The notes under the pieces were generated by a model. It was not told the DNA's origin, ran no database searches, and saw only the letters and a list, made by a program, of their open reading frames with translations. From positions 62,001-126,000 of the forward strand of contig NZ_JASISZ010000001.1 in assembly GCF_030063355.1 (NCBI RefSeq): DNA of 64,000 nucleotides, written 5' to 3'. The position numbers and the translations under genes were made by a program. Position 1 is the first letter of the stretch; each line of letters starts with the position of its first letter. Positions 9,395-60,651 of the stretch are shown piece by piece. The stretch comes from Streptomyces sp. PH10-H1. GTDB lineage: Bacteria; Actinomycetota; Actinomycetes; Streptomycetales; Streptomycetaceae.

Positions 9395-10741
9395 CTACTG
9401 GTCGATCTTGTCCTTGACCAGCGCCTGCACGTTCGACCACGCCTTGTCCTTGGACGTGCCGTGCTGCTCGATGTCGAGAATCCCGTTGTCGGTGAGGTAC
9501 GTCTTCACCTGGCCGTCGTAGCGGCCGATCGGCGCCGGTGTGACGCTCTTGGCGGTGGAGGTGTAGATCTTGCCGATCGGCGTCGTGCCGAAGTACGGGT
9601 TCGTCGCGTTCTGCACGGTGGGCGAGTCCAGTCCGGCCTTGGTGGACGGGATGTTGCCGTTCTTGGCGAAGACCTTCGCCTGCTGCTCGGGCGCGGTCAG
9701 CCAGGCGGCGAGCGCGGTCGCCTCGGCGGTGTGCTTGCCCGCCTTGGGAACGGAGAGGAAGGCACCGCCCCAGTTGCCGGCCTCCGGCGCGGCGGCGATG
9801 TCCCACTTGGCCTGGTTGGCGGGACCCGCCTGGTCCTTGATGATGCCGGTCATCCAGCTCGGGCACGCGATCGTGGCGAACTTCGAGTTCTTGAAGGCCG
9901 CGTTCCAGGTGCCCTTGTCGTCGAACTGCCGCAGCTTGCCGCTCAGACCCTGCTGAGCGGCCTCCACCGCCAGGTCCCACGCCTTCTTCACACCGGGGCT
10001 GGTGTCGTAGATCAGCTTGCCCTGGTCGTCGGAGTACTGCTGCGCCTGGCTGGAGACCACCGCGTTGAAGACCCCGCTCGCGGAGTCGGTGAAGGCGACT
10101 CCGGCCGGCGCCTTGGCCTTGAACTGCTTGCCGGCGTCGATGTACTTGGCCCAGTCGCCCGCCCACAGCGCGGCGACGGCCTCACGGTCGGTCGGCAGAC
10201 CCGCCTGCTGGAACAGGTCCTTGCGGTAGCAGATCGCCATCGGGCCGACGTCGGTGCCGAGCCCGATCACCTGGCCGCTCTTCGTGGTCGCCTGCTTCTC
10301 CTTCCAGTCCAGCCACTTGGTGGTGTCGACACCGGTGGCCTTGCCGAGGTCGGTGAACTTGTCCCCGAGCGTGGTGGTCGCCTCGGCGATGAAGCCGACC
10401 TCGATGGCCTGGACGTCGGCCAGGCCGCTGCCCTGCGACAGGTGGAGTTTCAGCGCGTCCCAGTACTTCTGGCCGTCGGCGACGTTGTCCTCGACGATCG
10501 TGATGTTCGGGTGCAGCGTGTGGTACTCGGAGAACAGGGCCGCGCCCGTCTTGTCGTCGTAGCCGAACGAACCGAAGTCGCCGACGTGCAGCGTGATGTT
10601 CCCGGTCCCGGTGCTCTCCTTCTTCCCGGAGTCCGAGCCGCTGCCGCTGCCGCAGCCGGTCATCAGGGTCGCGCAGGTCGCGAGCCCCGCGACCGCTATG
10701 AGTGCGGTCCTGCGGGCGCGAGTGCCGCTGGAAGTGCGCAT
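9395..10741 (-). CDS. cebE: Cellobiose/cellotriose-binding lipoprotein
   Basis: 448 residues. A lipoprotein signal peptide ends in the lipobox LMTGC with the lipidated Cys at residue 30, then a Gly/Ser/Asp spacer. The rest is a family 1 extracellular solute-binding protein with a mixed alpha/beta fold (for example DVGPMAICYRKDLFQQAGLP and CPSWMTGIIKD). It captures cello-oligosaccharides at the cell surface for CebF/CebG. It is the first gene of the operon; a perfect CebR palindrome lies 63 bp upstream. It is separated from cebF by a repeat-filled gap, unusual for a transporter operon. Confidence 0.94.
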   Translation of the reverse strand: MRTSSGTRARRTALIAVAGLATCATLMTGCGSGSGSDSGKKESTGTGNITLHVGDFGSFGYDDKTGAALFSEYHTLHPNITIVEDNVADGQKYWDALKLHLSQGSGLADVQAIEVGFIAEATTTLGDKFTDLGKATGVDTTKWLDWKEKQATTKSGQVIGLGTDVGPMAICYRKDLFQQAGLPTDREAVAALWAGDWAKYIDAGKQFKAKAPAGVAFTDSASGVFNAVVSSQAQQYSDDQGKLIYDTSPGVKKAWDLAVEAAQQGLSGKLRQFDDKGTWNAAFKNSKFATIACPSWMTGIIKDQAGPANQAKWDIAAAPEAGNWGGAFLSVPKAGKHTAEATALAAWLTAPEQQAKVFAKNGNIPSTKAGLDSPTVQNATNPYFGTTPIGKIYTSTAKSVTPAPIGRYDGQVKTYLTDNGILDIEQHGTSKDKAWSNVQALVKDKIDQ

Positions 10742-12965: not shown

Positions 12966-14279
12966 TCACCCTAAGGGGCGATCGCGTGGTCCAGGCATAG
13001 CCGGGTTGCGGCCGCGTGCGGCGCGCTCCGCCCGCAGCCGGCCCCGGATGGTGCCGTCGGAGCCGTCCATGCGGCTCTGTTCGGGCACCCGGGAGGCGTA
13101 CAGGTCGGAGTCGGGCTTGCCCGGAACCATGAGGATCTGGGGCGGTCCGCCCCGGCGGGGCGGCAGGTGTTCGGTCGGGACGGGTGGCCGTTCCGGGTCG
13201 TCCTGCGGACGCCTGGCCCGGTACGCGGCCCGGTAGGAGGCGGGCGACGACCCGAGCTGGCGGCGGAAGTGCCCGCGCAGCGCGACGGGCGAGCGGAAGC
13301 CGCAGCGTCCCGCCACCTCGTCCACCGAGAAGTCGGACGTCTCCAGCAGCCGCTGCGCCTGCAGCACCCGCTGGGTGATCAGCCACTGCAGCGGAGCACT
13401 GCCCGTGAGTGACCGGAACCGTCGGTCGAAGGTCCGGCGGCTCATGTACGCGCGGGCCGCCAGCGCCTCCACATCGAACTGCTCGTGCAGATGCTCCAGC
13501 GCCCAGGCGACGACCTCGGCCAGCGGGTCGCCCCCGATCTCCTCAGGTAATGACCTGTCGAGGTGGCGCTGGCTGGACGGCCAGTCGCTGCGGCGCGGCG
13601 GCACGACGAGGCGGCGGGCGAGCGCGTTGGCGGCCTCGGCGCCGTGATCGGTGCGTACGACATGCAGGCAGAGGTCGATTCCGGCCGCGGTGCCGGCTGA
13701 GGTCAGTACATCGCCGTCGTCCACGAAAAGCTCCCGGGGGTCCACGTGCACGGAGGGATAGCGCTTGGCCAGGGTGGGCGCGTACATCCAGTGGGTGGTC
13801 GCGGGGCGGCCGTCCAGCAGCCCCGCTGCGGCCAGGACGAACGCCCCGGTACACAGGCCGATGATCCGCGCGCCCTCCTCGTGGGCCCGGCGCAGTGCGT
13901 CGAGCGCCTCGGGGGGTGGTGGCTGGGAGATCGAGCGCCAGGCGGGCACGACCACGGTGCCGGCCCGTGAGAGCGCTTCGAGTCCGTACGGGGCACTGAG
14001 TTCCAGGCCGCCGGTGGTGCGAAGTGGTCCGTCCTCGCCGGCACAGACCAGCAGGCGGTAGCGGGGAACGCCCGCGTCCTGCCGGTCGATGCCGAACACG
14101 GAGAGCGGGATGGAACTTTCGAAGATCGGCCCGCCGCTGAACAGCAGCACGGCGACGACTTCGGCGCGCCGCCGTGCCGACAGTCTGCGAGTGGCGCGGG
14201 ACGACGCTGACGGTGCTGAGGATCCGGCTGACAGCGACAGGTTCTCCGTCGCCGTACCGGTCCTGGACTCCTGGCTCAT
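12966..14279 (-). CDS. adpA: AdpA, AraC/XylS-type developmental regulator with a TTA codon
   Basis: 437 residues. A GATase1/DJ-1-like dimerisation domain (about 40-230) contains LLFSGGPIFESSIPLSVFGI and IIGLCTGAFVLAAAGLLDGR. An AraC-type double helix-turn-helix follows at about 260-350 (LAARAYMSRRTFDRRF, DEVAGRCGFRSPVALRGHFR). The conserved DRSLPEEI segment carries Leu244 as TTA (plus-strand TAA at 13548-13550), which makes translation depend on the bldA tRNA in Streptomyces. Two adjacent ATGs (14282 and 14279) are possible starts. The known role is pleiotropic control of morphological differentiation and secondary metabolism. It is followed by orn. Confidence 0.96.
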   Translation of the reverse strand: MSQESRTGTATENLSLSAGSSAPSASSRATRRLSARRRAEVVAVLLFSGGPIFESSIPLSVFGIDRQDAGVPRYRLLVCAGEDGPLRTTGGLELSAPYGLEALSRAGTVVVPAWRSISQPPPPEALDALRRAHEEGARIIGLCTGAFVLAAAGLLDGRPATTHWMYAPTLAKRYPSVHVDPRELFVDDGDVLTSAGTAAGIDLCLHVVRTDHGAEAANALARRLVVPPRRSDWPSSQRHLDRSLPEEIGGDPLAEVVAWALEHLHEQFDVEALAARAYMSRRTFDRRFRSLTGSAPLQWLITQRVLQAQRLLETSDFSVDEVAGRCGFRSPVALRGHFRRQLGSSPASYRAAYRARRPQDDPERPPVPTEHLPPRRGGPPQILMVPGKPDSDLYASRVPEQSRMDGSDGTIRGRLRAERAARGRNPAMPGPRDRPLG

Positions 14280-14390
14280 CATGGAGCTCAAGCCCCCCTC
14301 GATCGACGCGGCCCCTCGGTCCTGCACGTTTCCCCCGCCGTGTTACCCAAGATCGAATCTACTGTGTTTGGTGTGTCTGGTGAGGCAATT

Positions 14391-14403: not shown

Positions 14404-14762
14404 CACCTGGCGCTAAGTCGACTTGACCACGTGGCGTGAAGCATTCGATCACGAAGCGTTCCACTCACCGAGCCTGCTGGGAAGTACGCCTCTCGCCCGC
14501 ACCGTGGCCTACAACGCTCCACGCGCCCCCCGGAGCCGTTTCATTGCAGGTGGCAGGCGGGTTGGCAAGCGTCTTTCCCAATAGGGGTACTGCGGCGAGA
14601 AGTTGGCCGAAAAAGATTGGCTCTGCTGCGTGTGCCACTGGTCGGCGCCCCGTTGTGCGCCCCCTGGCGGCCAACCGCCCCGGTGCGCCCCATTCGTGGG
14701 GGAGCGATGTCGGGCCACCGGGTGGGGACTGCGCCGCGCTCGGATGGCTTCGGACCGCCCCT

Positions 14763-14861
14763 GAGCTGTCATTGAGCTGTCATCGAGTGGCAATCGAGGT
14801 TTCATCGAGTGGTTCTTGAGTTCGTGGCTAATCGCTGGTGAGTCGCTGCCGAGTCGCTCTT
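14763..14861. repeat. 11-bp phased repeat array, 9 units
   Basis: Nine consecutive 11-bp units fill 14763-14861. Eight start with GAG: units 1-2 are GAGCTGTCATY, units 3-5 are GAGTGGCAATC, GAGGTTTCATC and GAGTGGTTCTT, and units 8-9 are GAGTCGCTGCC and GAGTCGCTCTT. The seventh unit (14829) begins TAA. The period is close to one DNA turn. Confidence 0.7.
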
Positions 14862-15298
14862 GGGGCGGGGCTCGGGCCGGGCGCTCGTGCCGCACTCGGG
14901 TTGCGGTGGGGTGACTCTGGCATCGTGGTGGAGTGGCTCCGGCGTTCGCGGTGGGGCCGAGCGCGGGCCGAGCCGCTTCCGGGGCGTCGCGCCCGCCGCG
15001 CGGGTTCGTCCGGCCGGATGGTGGCGCGGCGTTGCGTTCGGGGCCGGGCTCCGGCATTCTCCTGGAAACTCCGGGTACGGAAAGCCCGTGCAGAGCTTGA
15101 CGAGTCTGTGCAGGGATACGTCTCAGCCGTACTCTGGAGTCATCGGGACCGGAAGCCCCGAACTGGCCGAAACCGGTCAGGCTCGAGGCCGCCGCCCGGG
15201 TATAACCGAAGACGCAGTGCAGTCCGCTGCGAAGACCGCAGCACCGTCGTTGTCCGTCGGCCGGCGCACTTCCGCCGCCCTTGTCGAGAAACCGCATC

Positions 15299-15820
15299 AT
15301 GGCCGGTTATGAGCTCCCTGAGCCCGCTGAAGGCAAGCCGCTCGCCGAATCGGCGGCGCTCCCCGAGGCGGCCCCCGAGCTGCGCTCGTCCTGTGACCCA
15401 GCTTTCCGGCACGGCGTCGTGGTGGGCTTCGACGGCTCGGTGTCCAGTGAGCGGGCGCTCGCGTATTCGATCGGCATGGCCCGGCGACTGGGCTCCGCGC
15501 TGATCATCGTCCATGTCGCCAACCGGCTGCCGGCCACGGTGTGGGCCGGCTGTGAACCGCCGGTGTTCGTGGATGTCCCGGACCACAGGACCGAGGTGCT
15601 CGGGCTGGAACTCGCCTGTGCCGATCACCTCGCCGAGGTGCCGTGGATCCTGGTCGAACGGGGCGGCGACATCTGCCACGAACTGGAGGAGGTCGGCCGG
15701 GAGTACGAGGCCGACGCCATCGTCGTGGGCGGCACCCAGGGCATTATCGGCCGGATCTTCGGCTCGGTCGCGGGGCGGCTCGCACGGCGGGCGCAGCGGC
15801 CCGTCATCGTCATCCCGTAG
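15299..15820 (+). CDS. Universal stress protein (single UspA domain)
   Basis: 173 residues, with an N-terminal extension of about 35 residues before the domain. The UspA fold starts at VVVGFDGSVSSERALAYSI and ends with the ATP-binding-type loop GGTQGIIGRIFGSVAGRLARRAQRPVIVIP-like region (about residues 144-173), i.e. the G-x2-G-x9-G(S/T) class. The ATG at 15299 has only a weak purine-rich site before it. It is divergent from adpA across 1 kb. The role (energy, oxygen or dormancy stress) cannot be told from sequence. Confidence 0.88.
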   Translation: MAGYELPEPAEGKPLAESAALPEAAPELRSSCDPAFRHGVVVGFDGSVSSERALAYSIGMARRLGSALIIVHVANRLPATVWAGCEPPVFVDVPDHRTEVLGLELACADHLAEVPWILVERGGDICHELEEVGREYEADAIVVGGTQGIIGRIFGSVAGRLARRAQRPVIVIP

Positions 15821-15985
15821 AGCCGCCCGAGCAATATTCCGACCCGCCGGATGACGCCCACCCCAACCCGCGCCTGCCCCAACCCGCGCCTGCCCTCCTC
15901 ACTGCAGCTCACCCGACGGCCCGCAAACCGGGTGGGACGCAGGGTGCCCGGGGCCGCAGGGGTGGGGGCTCGAAATGCTGCCGAG

Positions 15986-16015
15986 CTATTTGTGGGCCAA
16001 AAGGCCCGTAAATAG
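15986..16015. terminator. Hairpin between the stress-protein gene and glmS
   Basis: CTATTT-GT-GGGCC, loop AAAA, GGCCC-GT-AAATAG gives a 13-bp stem including two G-U pairs. It is symmetric with A/T outer arms, so it can act in both directions. It lies between two convergent genes. Confidence 0.7.
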
Positions 16016-16084
16016 TCGATTTCGAACCGCCGCCCCGGAGGACCCGGGCACCGAAACCCAGAACCAGCCCGCGGTCTACTCGAC

Positions 16085-31680: not shown

Positions 31681-31892
31681 TGTCGCGCCTCGCCGCACGG
31701 GCGTACGGGGCGAGGGTGATCGACACCGATGTGTGACCGATCGGTGGTCCGTGGCGGTCGGTCGCGGGTCGATCGAGAGTCGAATTGGGGACTCGTCGCG
31801 GGTTCGTCGCGGGTCCGTTGCAGGGCCGTCGTCGGCCTGGAGCCCGGTCCTTGGGCCCGAACTCGGGGACGGGTGCCGGGATTTCCGCCGCC

Positions 31893-31944
31893 GCTCGGAT
31901 TCCGCGCTCGGATTCCGCGCTCGGATTCCGCGCTCGAATTCCGC
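31893..31944. repeat. 13-bp tandem repeat (4 units) just downstream of the PucR gene
   Basis: Three perfect GCTCGGATTCCGC units (31893, 31906, 31919) and one with a single change (31932). The array ends 6 bp before the PucR stop codon on the plus strand. A 13-bp period excludes in-frame coding. Confidence 0.85.
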
Positions 31945-31950
31945 CGCCGT

Positions 31951-33699
31951 TCAGAGCCAGCGCAGCGCGAACCACAGGTCCATGCGGGTATCCGGGTCGT
32001 CGAGGTCCGCGTCGAGCAGCGCGGCGGTCCGCGCGATGCGCTGCCGGACCGTGTTGCGGTGCACTTCCAGCGCGACGGCGGTGCGGTCCCAGCTGCCGTG
32101 CAGCGCCAGCCAGGAGCGCAGTGTCTCCACCAGCGCTGGGGAGTCCAGCAGCGGCTCCAGCCGGGCGCGGGCGTGGGCGCGCGCCTCCTCCGGTGCGACG
32201 AGCGCCGCCACACCCGCGTCGCCGCTGCGGTGCCGGGCCAGCCCTGAGCGGTTCGCGACGGCCCGGCGGAGCGCCCCCGCCGCCTGGGCGTCGGCGACGG
32301 CCAGCTCTCCGGTGGACGCGGCGCCGCTGACCCCGAGCGTCCAGCCCGGCTGCGCCGAGATCCTGCGGTCGGCGGGGAGCAGGGCCCGTACGGCGTCGCC
32401 GTCCGCGTCGACCAGGGCGGTGCCGAGCGCCGCGGCCAGGGAGGCCGCTGCCAGGGGCGCCGCCTCGCGCGCCGGACCGGAGCCGCGGCGGTGCCCGTGC
32501 ACCACGGTCCAGCGCGGCCCGGCGGGGCCGGACCGCTCGGTGCCCGGCGCCGGATCCGTCTCTGTACCTGCTTGCGTGCTCGCCCCGGCGATCGGCCGGA
32601 CGGGTCCGACCAGCAGGTTCGCGACGTCCTCCGGCCGGGCGCCGAGCAGCAGCCGCACCAGGGCGGCCGAGCGGTCGGTGTCGGCCGTGCCCTGGTAGGG
32701 GCCGGTGAGGAGCGACAGCAGGACGGTGGCGACCCCGGTGAGCGCGTGGTCCGCCGGTTCGCGCCGCCCGGCCGAGACCGCCAGCACCAGGCCCTCGCCG
32801 GGAACGCCCCCGGCGAGGGCGTAGGCCGCCAGGTGCCCGCCGCCGACCGTGTCGGTCGCGGACGAGGGCGCCGGGCCGGCGGCCTGCGCGCGGGCTGCCG
32901 GGGAGCGGGCCGGCTGCGCGCGGGCGGGCTGCGGGTGGGCGGCCCGCGAGCGGGCTGCCGGTGGTGGAGCGGCCGACGGGTGGTCCGCCGGTGTGGGAAC
33001 GGCCGGGGCGTGCGTGGCGTGCGGGGCGGGCGGCTGGGTGGGCGCGAGGGGCCGTACCACCCGCGCCAGCTCGCTGAGCGCGGCCCGGACCGCCGGCCCG
33101 GGCCGGGAGCCCGCCCCGTACAGCTCCCCGCCGCCGGGGGCCAGGAGCGCGGCCCAGCCGCCCAGGTGGTGAGCGAGCTGACGCAGCACGGCGGGGACGG
33201 GTTCGGGGCGGGCGGCGGCGGAAGCCAGGGACTGCTGCGCCTCGGTGACGCGGCGCAGCTCGCGGTGACGGGCCTCGGCCATCGCCTGCCAGACGGCGCG
33301 GGCGACAGCGGTGAAGGGGGTTTGCGGCGGAACCTCCACCAAAGGCAGGCCATGGCGGTCGCACGCCTCGACGAGGGCACGCGGCGTCTCATGGTGAACG
33401 GGCGCGAGCCCGAAGCCGAGCGCCGCGGCACCCGCCTCGACGGCACGGGCCACGTAGCGGTCGAGATAGGCGGGGTCGACGCGGGCCCCGGAGCCGCCGG
33501 CCGACGGGAAGTGCACCCCGGCCGTCAGCAGCAGCTCGCCGCCCAGCAGCTACGGAACCGGGTCCTCCATCTCGCTGGTGTGCGCCCAGTGGATGGGAAT
33601 GTCCTCGCGCGGCCCCGCGACTTGCCGAAGGCCCAGGTCCGCGCGGGCCAGCAGGTCGGCGAGCGGTACCGGGGGAGTGGGCGGCGCCAAGATCGGCAT
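31951..33699 (-). pseudogene. PucR-family regulator interrupted by an in-frame TAG
   Basis: The frame from the ATG at 33699 (GGATGGA 6 nt upstream; another ATG at 33705) reads PILAPPTPPVPLADLLARAD and so on, the usual PucR N-terminal domain, but codon 50 is TAG (plus-strand CTA at 33550-33552). Beyond it the same frame continues with LLGGELLLTAG, where relatives read YLLGGELLLTAG, so TAC to TAG is the likely change. The rest (to residue 582) is intact: a long Pro/Ala-rich linker, a GGDEF-like middle region and the C-terminal PucR helix-turn-helix with HGSWDRTAVALEVHRNTVRQ. Restart at the GTG at 33516 would drop about 61 residues. It is divergent from the symporter. Confidence 0.8.
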
Positions 33700-44424: not shown

Positions 44425-46257
44425 CTAGCGGAATCTCAGACCGTGGCCGATCGGATAGAGCACCTGCTTCGGATCGTCCGCGCGCGGTACCGCGACCGGC
44501 AGCCTGCCGACCGGGGCCGCCCTGCCGGCGATGACGCGGGCCACGGCGCGCAACGACACATCGGTCCAGCCGTAGACAGCCAGACCCGCCGCGACGCCGC
44601 TGAGCCACGCGATGTCGTACGGGTTGCGGATGGCGATCTGGACGACGGGCACGCCGGTGGCCACCAGGGCCTTGACCAGGGCGATTTGGCCGGAAAAGGC
44701 CGCCGTGACGTTGTAGGTGGCGACGATGACTCCGTCCTTGCCGAGGGCGGCCGCCACCGCCCGGTCGATCAGGGCCTGGCCGGGCGCGGTGCCGGTGGGC
44801 AGCGCCTGCGCGGGGTGGCCGAGACCGGTGAGCGCCTCGGCGAGCACGGCGGTCGGCGGGCCTCCGGTGCCGGACGGTGCGGCCGGATCCGCGCCGACCA
44901 CCAGCAGATTCCGGTGAGCGCGGCGCGGCAGGGGCAGGATCTGGGCGCGATTGGTGAGCAGCGTGACGGTGCGGTCCGTGATCCGGTCGGCGGTGGCGCG
45001 ATGCGAACGGATGCCGACGGCCCGGTCGACGCCCTGATGGGTGACGTACGGGTTCCGGAACAGACCGTTGCGGGCCTTGAGTTCCAGGATCCGGACGAGG
45101 GACTCGTCGATCCGCCGTTCGGAGATCTCCCCCGACTTCACCGCGTCGAGCACCGCGTTCCAGGCGACGTCGAGCAGGGGCGGGTTGAGCAGCTGGTCCG
45201 CACCGGCCTTGAGGGCGAGCACGGGCACCCGGTCGTCGCCGTACTTCTGCCGCACACCGGCCATGCCAAGCGAGTCGGTGATCACGACTCCGTCGTAGCC
45301 GAGTTCCTCGCGGAGGATCCCGGTGAGAATGGGACGGGAGAGGGTGGCGGGGTCTCCGGAGTCGTCGAGCGCGGGGACCAGGATGTGGGCCGTCATGATC
45401 GAGTCGATACCAGCGGCGATCGCGGCGCGGAACGGCGGCGCGTCGATCCGCCGCCACTCCTCCAGCGAGTGGGTGATGACCGGCAGCTCGAAGTGGCTGT
45501 CGGTGCCGGTGTCGCCGTGCCCGGGGAAGTGCTTGGCGGTGGAGGCGATCCCCGCCCCCTGGTAGCCCTTGACCTGGGCGGCGGTCAGAGCGGCGACGGC
45601 CTGCGGATCGGCGCCGAAGGACCGCACACCGATCACGGGGTTGGCCGGATTGATGTTCACATCCGAGACCGGTGAGAAGTTCTGGTTGACGCCTATGGCG
45701 CCGAGTTCGGTGCCGATGACATGGGCGGCGGCGCGGGCATCGTGCGGATCACCGTCGGCGCCCAGCGCCATCCCGCCGGGAAAGAGGGTGGCCGGCGACC
45801 CGATCCTGGCGACCGCGCCCTGTTCCTGGTCGGTGGAGATCAGCAGCGGAATGGGGGTCCCATGGGTGAGCCCGGCGCGCTGGATGCCGTTGGAGAGGCC
45901 GGCGATCTGGTGCGGGTCACGGGTGTTGTGGGCCCAGGCGAAGTAGATGATGCCGCCGAGATGGTACTTGGCAATGAGCTCGGCGGCGTTGGAGACACCC
46001 ATCTCGCTCTGGTTGGAGGCGGCATCGGCAGGGTCGGGGGCGGTGGCGGAATGGCCGTAGACCCGCATCACGAAGAGTTGCCCGACCTTCTCCGCACGGC
46101 TCATCCGCGCGATGATCGCGCGGATCATTCTGCGGTCCGGAGCGGCGGCCTCGGCCGCCGGGATTCCGGCGGCGAAAGAGCCCGCGGTGACGGCGGTGAC
46201 GGCGGTGGCGGCCGCGGTGGTGAGCACGGTGCGGCGGGAGGGCAGGCGGTGGTGCAT
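44425..46257 (-). CDS. Exported GH3 beta-N-acetylhexosaminidase-like enzyme
   Basis: 610 residues. A twin-arginine-type leader (PSRRTVLTTAAATA) and Ala-rich region end near residue 40. The GH3 barrel (about 45-380) has the NagZ-type His/Asp dyad motif KHFPGHGDTGTDSH and the nucleophile Asp in VVITDSLGM. A C-terminal alpha/beta sandwich domain follows. The KHFPGHG signature marks the N-acetylglucosaminidase branch, acting on chitooligosaccharides or peptidoglycan fragments outside the membrane. AGGAG lies 7 nt before the ATG at 46257. The upstream 80 bp is rich in GAAA/TTTC palindromes. Confidence 0.9.
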   Translation of the reverse strand: MHHRLPSRRTVLTTAAATAVTAVTAGSFAAGIPAAEAAAPDRRMIRAIIARMSRAEKVGQLFVMRVYGHSATAPDPADAASNQSEMGVSNAAELIAKYHLGGIIYFAWAHNTRDPHQIAGLSNGIQRAGLTHGTPIPLLISTDQEQGAVARIGSPATLFPGGMALGADGDPHDARAAAHVIGTELGAIGVNQNFSPVSDVNINPANPVIGVRSFGADPQAVAALTAAQVKGYQGAGIASTAKHFPGHGDTGTDSHFELPVITHSLEEWRRIDAPPFRAAIAAGIDSIMTAHILVPALDDSGDPATLSRPILTGILREELGYDGVVITDSLGMAGVRQKYGDDRVPVLALKAGADQLLNPPLLDVAWNAVLDAVKSGEISERRIDESLVRILELKARNGLFRNPYVTHQGVDRAVGIRSHRATADRITDRTVTLLTNRAQILPLPRRAHRNLLVVGADPAAPSGTGGPPTAVLAEALTGLGHPAQALPTGTAPGQALIDRAVAAALGKDGVIVATYNVTAAFSGQIALVKALVATGVPVVQIAIRNPYDIAWLSGVAAGLAVYGWTDVSLRAVARVIAGRAAPVGRLPVAVPRADDPKQVLYPIGHGLRFR

Positions 46258-60609: not shown

Positions 60610-60651
60610 GCGGACAGAACCGCAGAGCATGCGGACAGAACCGCAGAGCAT
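60610..60651. repeat. Perfect 21-bp direct repeat downstream of citA
   Basis: The 21-bp unit that begins GCGGACAGAACC and ends GAGCAT occurs twice without a gap, at 60610-60630 and 60631-60651, identical at every position. Confidence 0.9.

Follow-up and report, generated by a model that had tools for sequence, protein, structure and literature searches.

The intergenic region between adpA and a universal stress protein gene (usp) holds a lineage-specific, non-coding tandem repeat of 11-bp units with a TCGAG-type core, in which whole units are gained and lost. It lies in our window, the stretch of 64,000 nucleotides that we analysed. Our tentative preference is that this repeat, specific to its lineage and variable in length, is an operator-like array at which an OmpR/SARP-type protein would act, mainly on usp. 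We infer the binding of a protein, the identity of that protein and the gene that it regulates; the repeat, its relatives and its setting are observed and are described below.

Positions 14763-14861 had been cut into nine 11-mers in the initial annotation, and the letters bear this out. Eight of the nine units begin with GAG (the seventh is TAATCGCTGGT), and shared letters are present too, with CATT or CATC at the end of units 1, 2 and 4 and GTCGCT within units 8 and 9. Written from 14761, in the TCGAG register, the units are CTGAGCTGTCA TTGAGCTGTCA TCGAGTGGCAA TCGAGGTTTCA TCGAGTGGTTC TTGAGTTCGTG GCTAATCGCTG GTGAGTCGCTG CCGAGTCGCTC, with a mean column identity of 0.52. Identity within the array is 0.60, 0.60 and 0.47 at lags of 11, 22 and 33 bp and about 0.25 at other lags. 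The periodic signal exceeds shuffled controls: when the intergenic region was shuffled 2000 times with dinucleotides preserved, the array score was never reached, and 14763-14861 has the highest 11-bp-period score among 99-bp stretches of the window. The annotation was also right that this phasing puts the units on the same face of the helix. By segment score, a weak continuation to about 14945 brings the periodic segment to 183 bp.

Table 1. Features of the adpA-usp region, in window coordinates.
Feature	Position	Strand	Basis or remark
adpA (DJ-1/PfpI and AraC-type HTH)	12966..14282	-	Pfam; relatives at most 97% identical
adpA-side block, strongly conserved, AAGCATTCGATCACGAAGCGTT...	14439..14470	.	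Alignment of relatives
Main array, nine 11-bp units	14762..14861	+	11-bp periodicity; TCGAG register starts at 14761
Degenerate continuation of the 11-bp periodicity	14862..14945	+	Maximum-scoring lag-11/22 segment, 14762-14945
usp promoter-like block, conserved, GTTGCGTTC...GGCATTCTCCTGG	15031..15065	+	In 5/5 lineage genomes
usp, universal stress protein	15299..15820	+	Pfam PF00582; ortholog in 35/35 genus genomes

The flanks of the array are as first annotated, with AdpA encoded on the minus strand, a Usp-family protein on the plus strand and a gap of about 1 kb between them. The view that the array is non-coding also stands. GC content is flat by codon position (0.63-0.73) in the open reading frames that cross it, unlike in adpA and usp, where GC at position 3 is 0.86-0.87, and we therefore reject a coding reading; a structured RNA is rejected because Rfam gives no match. 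Upstream of usp lies a block that reads GTTGCG...GGCATTCTCCTGG and may serve as a promoter. This block is also readable in aligned relatives that lack the array, and a consensus scan found no sigma-70-type promoter. In the window, the block begins 86 bp past the degenerate end of the array or 170 bp past its strong end, and in the relatives 38-51 bp separate the two. In each of the five lineage genomes the array sits on the usp side, upstream of this block, and its separation from the adpA-side block ranges between 323 and 446 bp. Given this arrangement, we place the array with the usp promoter rather than with adpA, and it more probably serves usp. The suggested link to the developmental regulator is thus weaker than had been assumed. 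On the far side of usp, between the convergent usp and glmS-like genes, positions 15940-16050 form a long imperfect inverted repeat that includes GGGCC-AAAA-GGCCC and looks like a bidirectional terminator.

We searched the same locus in other Streptomyces, using 35 genomes of the genus, all with a usp ortholog. In the four genomes nearest to that of the window (G019, G007, G020 and G021; Usp 99-100% identical), an 11-bp array lies in the same intergenic region in every case. None of 300 shuffles reaches the score of any of these arrays and no other tested period stands out. The unit in the four relatives is roughly GAGCCGTTCTG. Both the letters and the copy numbers differ among the lineage genomes, the letters of the window being the most divergent of the five, and the periodic segments measure 183 bp in the window and 132, 99, 78 and 77 bp in the others. 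When the four relatives are aligned, G021 and the other three are set apart by a gap of exactly 33 bp, or three units of 11 bp. No comparable array turned up at the loci retrieved from the other genus members, though usp and the promoter-like block persist. Among the genus members examined, an array at adpA/usp was thus found only in these five closely related genomes. Upstream of adpA, 6 of 80 loci hold an 11-bp segment scoring above 12, with letters that are mostly different and in some cases G-rich and ambiguous. A literature search that covered few subscription papers turned up no earlier description of an array upstream of adpA.

The 33-bp difference is a change of whole units between relatives, and in this and in its tandem arrangement the array resembles intergenic minisatellites, or VNTRs. 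However, minisatellites of recent expansion have near-identical units, whereas the units here are only about 52% identical on average, indicating that the array is not young. In the sister pair G019 and G007, the strong part of the array has 1 difference in 48 bases, compared with 16 in the 101 bases immediately before it (Fisher p = 0.0125); set against the wider variable intergenic region, the low divergence of the array in this pair is not significant (p = 0.15).

The unit is best written as TCGAG-N6, which corresponds to the heptamer-plus-four layout of SARP targets. The targets of ActII-ORF4 and DnrI are described as TCGAGXX heptamers with 4-bp spacers (PMC6510168), and the SARP PimR binds cooperatively with one monomer per heptamer (PMC5930380). 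We compared the in-phase match of a consensus to the array with its match to column-permuted arrays; four consensuses were tried and the p values are uncorrected. On this footing, the SARP heptamer TCGAGCS fits in phase with p = 0.01 in the window, 0.047 in G021 and 0.06 in G019. An exact TCGAG, however, is present in only three of the nine window units. The genome of the window has 14 matches to BTAD (SARP) and 39 to Trans_reg_C.

Like operators of the ActII-ORF4/DnrI type, the array is made of direct repeats at an 11-bp spacing (11 or 22 bp being the spacing of SARP operators), lies on one helix face and appears to combine a TCGAG core with a variable remainder. It differs from them in having nine or more units where SARP operators usually have few, and in having no known link to an antibiotic cluster. 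It also differs in its relation to the promoter. In the usual SARP architecture, the 3' repeat lies 8 bp upstream of the -10 box (PMC10936776) and overlaps the -35 box, whereas the array stands 38-170 bp upstream of the promoter-like block, and we found no -10-like hexamer (TANNNT) on either strand in the stretches scanned near it. Since this defining feature is lacking, we stop short of classing the array among SARP operators. A further likeness is offered by the PimR operator upstream of pimM, in which SARP heptamers with 4-nt spacers lie clear of the -35 box (PMC10972967) and a second heptamer triplet raises transcription (PMC5930380), although that operator has three plus two heptamers and belongs to an antibiotic pathway gene. 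The initial annotation had pointed to arrays bound by cooperative proteins. Given the TCGAGXX-plus-four layout and the retention of the array in five of five lineage members, such binding is plausible. If it occurs, an OmpR/SARP-type protein would bind the 11-bp TCGAG units cooperatively on one face of the helix and would act on the promoter-like block downstream.

The first two units of the array contain CTGTCAT-N4-CTGTCAT, the form of the E. coli PHO box. That the array is a PHO-box or AfsR-box operator upstream of adpA/usp would also suit its period, as AfsR and PhoP sites are 11-nt direct repeats (PMC10972967, PMC6988585), and operators of the PhoP/AfsR type may, as the array does, comprise several core units with weaker flanking ones (PMC7866108). 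However, its letters differ from both the PhoP box (GTTCACC-N4) and the AfsR box (CGTTYATCGNN). The in-phase fits of GTTCACC (p = 0.70), CGTTYATCGNN (p = 0.25) and the E. coli CTGTCAT (p = 0.29) are no better than those of column-permuted arrays, so all three boxes are rejected and we consider a PHO or AfsR operator very unlikely indeed.

The array is AT-rich for its surroundings, with 53.5% GC in a window of 70.7% GC. An intrinsically curved, AT-richer element, in which the phased repeat would bend the DNA upstream of the usp promoter, its effect being mediated by DNA shape or by a nucleoid protein such as Lsr2, is a further candidate. In a dinucleotide wedge model, predicted curvature across the window peaks in the 66 bp from 14757, at 16.9 degrees per turn against a mean of 4.5. 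The bent DNA proposed in the initial annotation is borne out to the extent of this strong predicted curvature, but over 183 bp the prediction is ordinary (61st percentile), and near-helical repeats of any kind sum coherently, so the predicted curvature is not independent evidence. Furthermore, the longest A/T run in the array is four bases and occurs once, and the related arrays found elsewhere are rich in GC (0.68-0.84). Such an element seems distinctly unlikely.

We searched for four TCGAG cores at 11-bp spacing with at most three mismatches. The genome of the window has 11 such matches, of which 10 fall within three intergenic arrays. Besides the one at adpA/usp, these are an array of seven TCGAGNNNGGA units that separates the divergent MarR and TetR genes (C66:45690-45768 in G000 or, more narrowly, 45696-45766) and an array of six 11-bp units upstream of an SsgA-like gene (C66:9726-9800 in G000 or, more narrowly, 9730-9789). 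The MarR-TetR array has three units in G020 and G021 and is not recognisable in G019 and G007; at the SsgA-like locus, the close relatives have the flanks but not the array. Long 11-bp arrays are also present in orthologous places in G021 (157 bp, L294 about 1499-1655) and G020 (189 bp, L299 about 1489-1677), upstream of the same small-protein gene and next to a phosphomannomutase-like gene, both names being read from sequence. Arrays of this sort thus recur at several loci and, being shortened or missing in relatives, turn over fast, with no clear functional theme shared. In a census of about 0.87 Mb sampled from the 8.5 Mb of the window's genome, 13 segments have period 11, compared with 3, 5, 2 and 4 at periods 10, 13, 14 and 16. 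This modest excess is absent in the sampled DNA of G021, G019 and G030; because it is seen in the window's genome only, it does not hold for the genus as a whole. Nor are ATCGAG triples enriched at period 11 across the genus: with overlaps counted once, there are about 9 loci at that period, compared with 7 at period 10 and 9 at period 13.

Almost as likely as an operator is a neutral, degenerate tandem repeat, in which slippage or unequal exchange within fast-evolving intergenic DNA duplicated an 11-bp unit that is now decaying, with no protein reading it. We simulated tandem duplication with mutation and compared simulated and real arrays for column-to-column unevenness. With p = 0.24 for the window array, 0.59 for that between MarR and TetR and 0.22 for that of G021, these three fit the neutral simulation, and the SsgA-like array alone exceeds it (p = 0.0013). 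It is this fit, together with the coming and going of similar arrays between relatives, that makes neutral drift nearly as probable. It would also account for the copy-number changes by whole units and for the few unrelated Streptomyces that carry 11-bp arrays with other letters upstream of adpA, and the intergenic DNA of these genomes commonly holds degenerate tandem arrays, their periods varied and their units unrelated. Against drift stand the retention of the array upstream of the usp block throughout the lineage, its low divergence in the sister pair and the TCGAG core common to three separate arrays of one genome. In addition, 15 of 33 period-11 loci are real arrays (5 scoring at least 25), compared with 7 of 33 (none at that score) at period 10. 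An operator is further favoured by the periodicity here and in four relatives, the 33-bp difference and the in-phase TCGAGCS; it is disfavoured by the lack of TANNNT, the neutral column heterogeneity, the absence of the array in other genus members, the turnover of two other arrays and the occurrence of TCGAG arrays of period 10, which are shorter.

As an operator, the array would greatly exceed in length the SARP/OmpR-type sites described to date, would sit on a stress gene beside adpA and would evolve by whole helical turns, and the lineage would offer a natural series of about 77 to 183 bp in which to measure promoter output against repeat number. If it is neutral, it serves as a warning that drift can produce phased repeats next to well-known regulators. 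A more general proposal, which we regard as unlikely, is that in this lineage a winged-helix (SARP-like) regulator acting outside antibiotic clusters has as its operators, at several chromosomal genes (adpA/usp, MarR/TetR, SsgA-like and the small-protein gene beside manB), long TCGAG-N6 arrays of tunable length (about 6-16 units), with promoter strength evolving by gain and loss of 11-bp units.

Elsewhere in the window, a degenerate 11-bp array of TCGTCGCGGGT units, followed nearby by a four-copy 13-bp array (CGCTCGGATTCCG), lies between two minus-strand open reading frames at 31785-31957, and positions 60610-60651 are a perfect tandem duplication of 21 bp (GCGGACAGAACCGCAGAGCAT).
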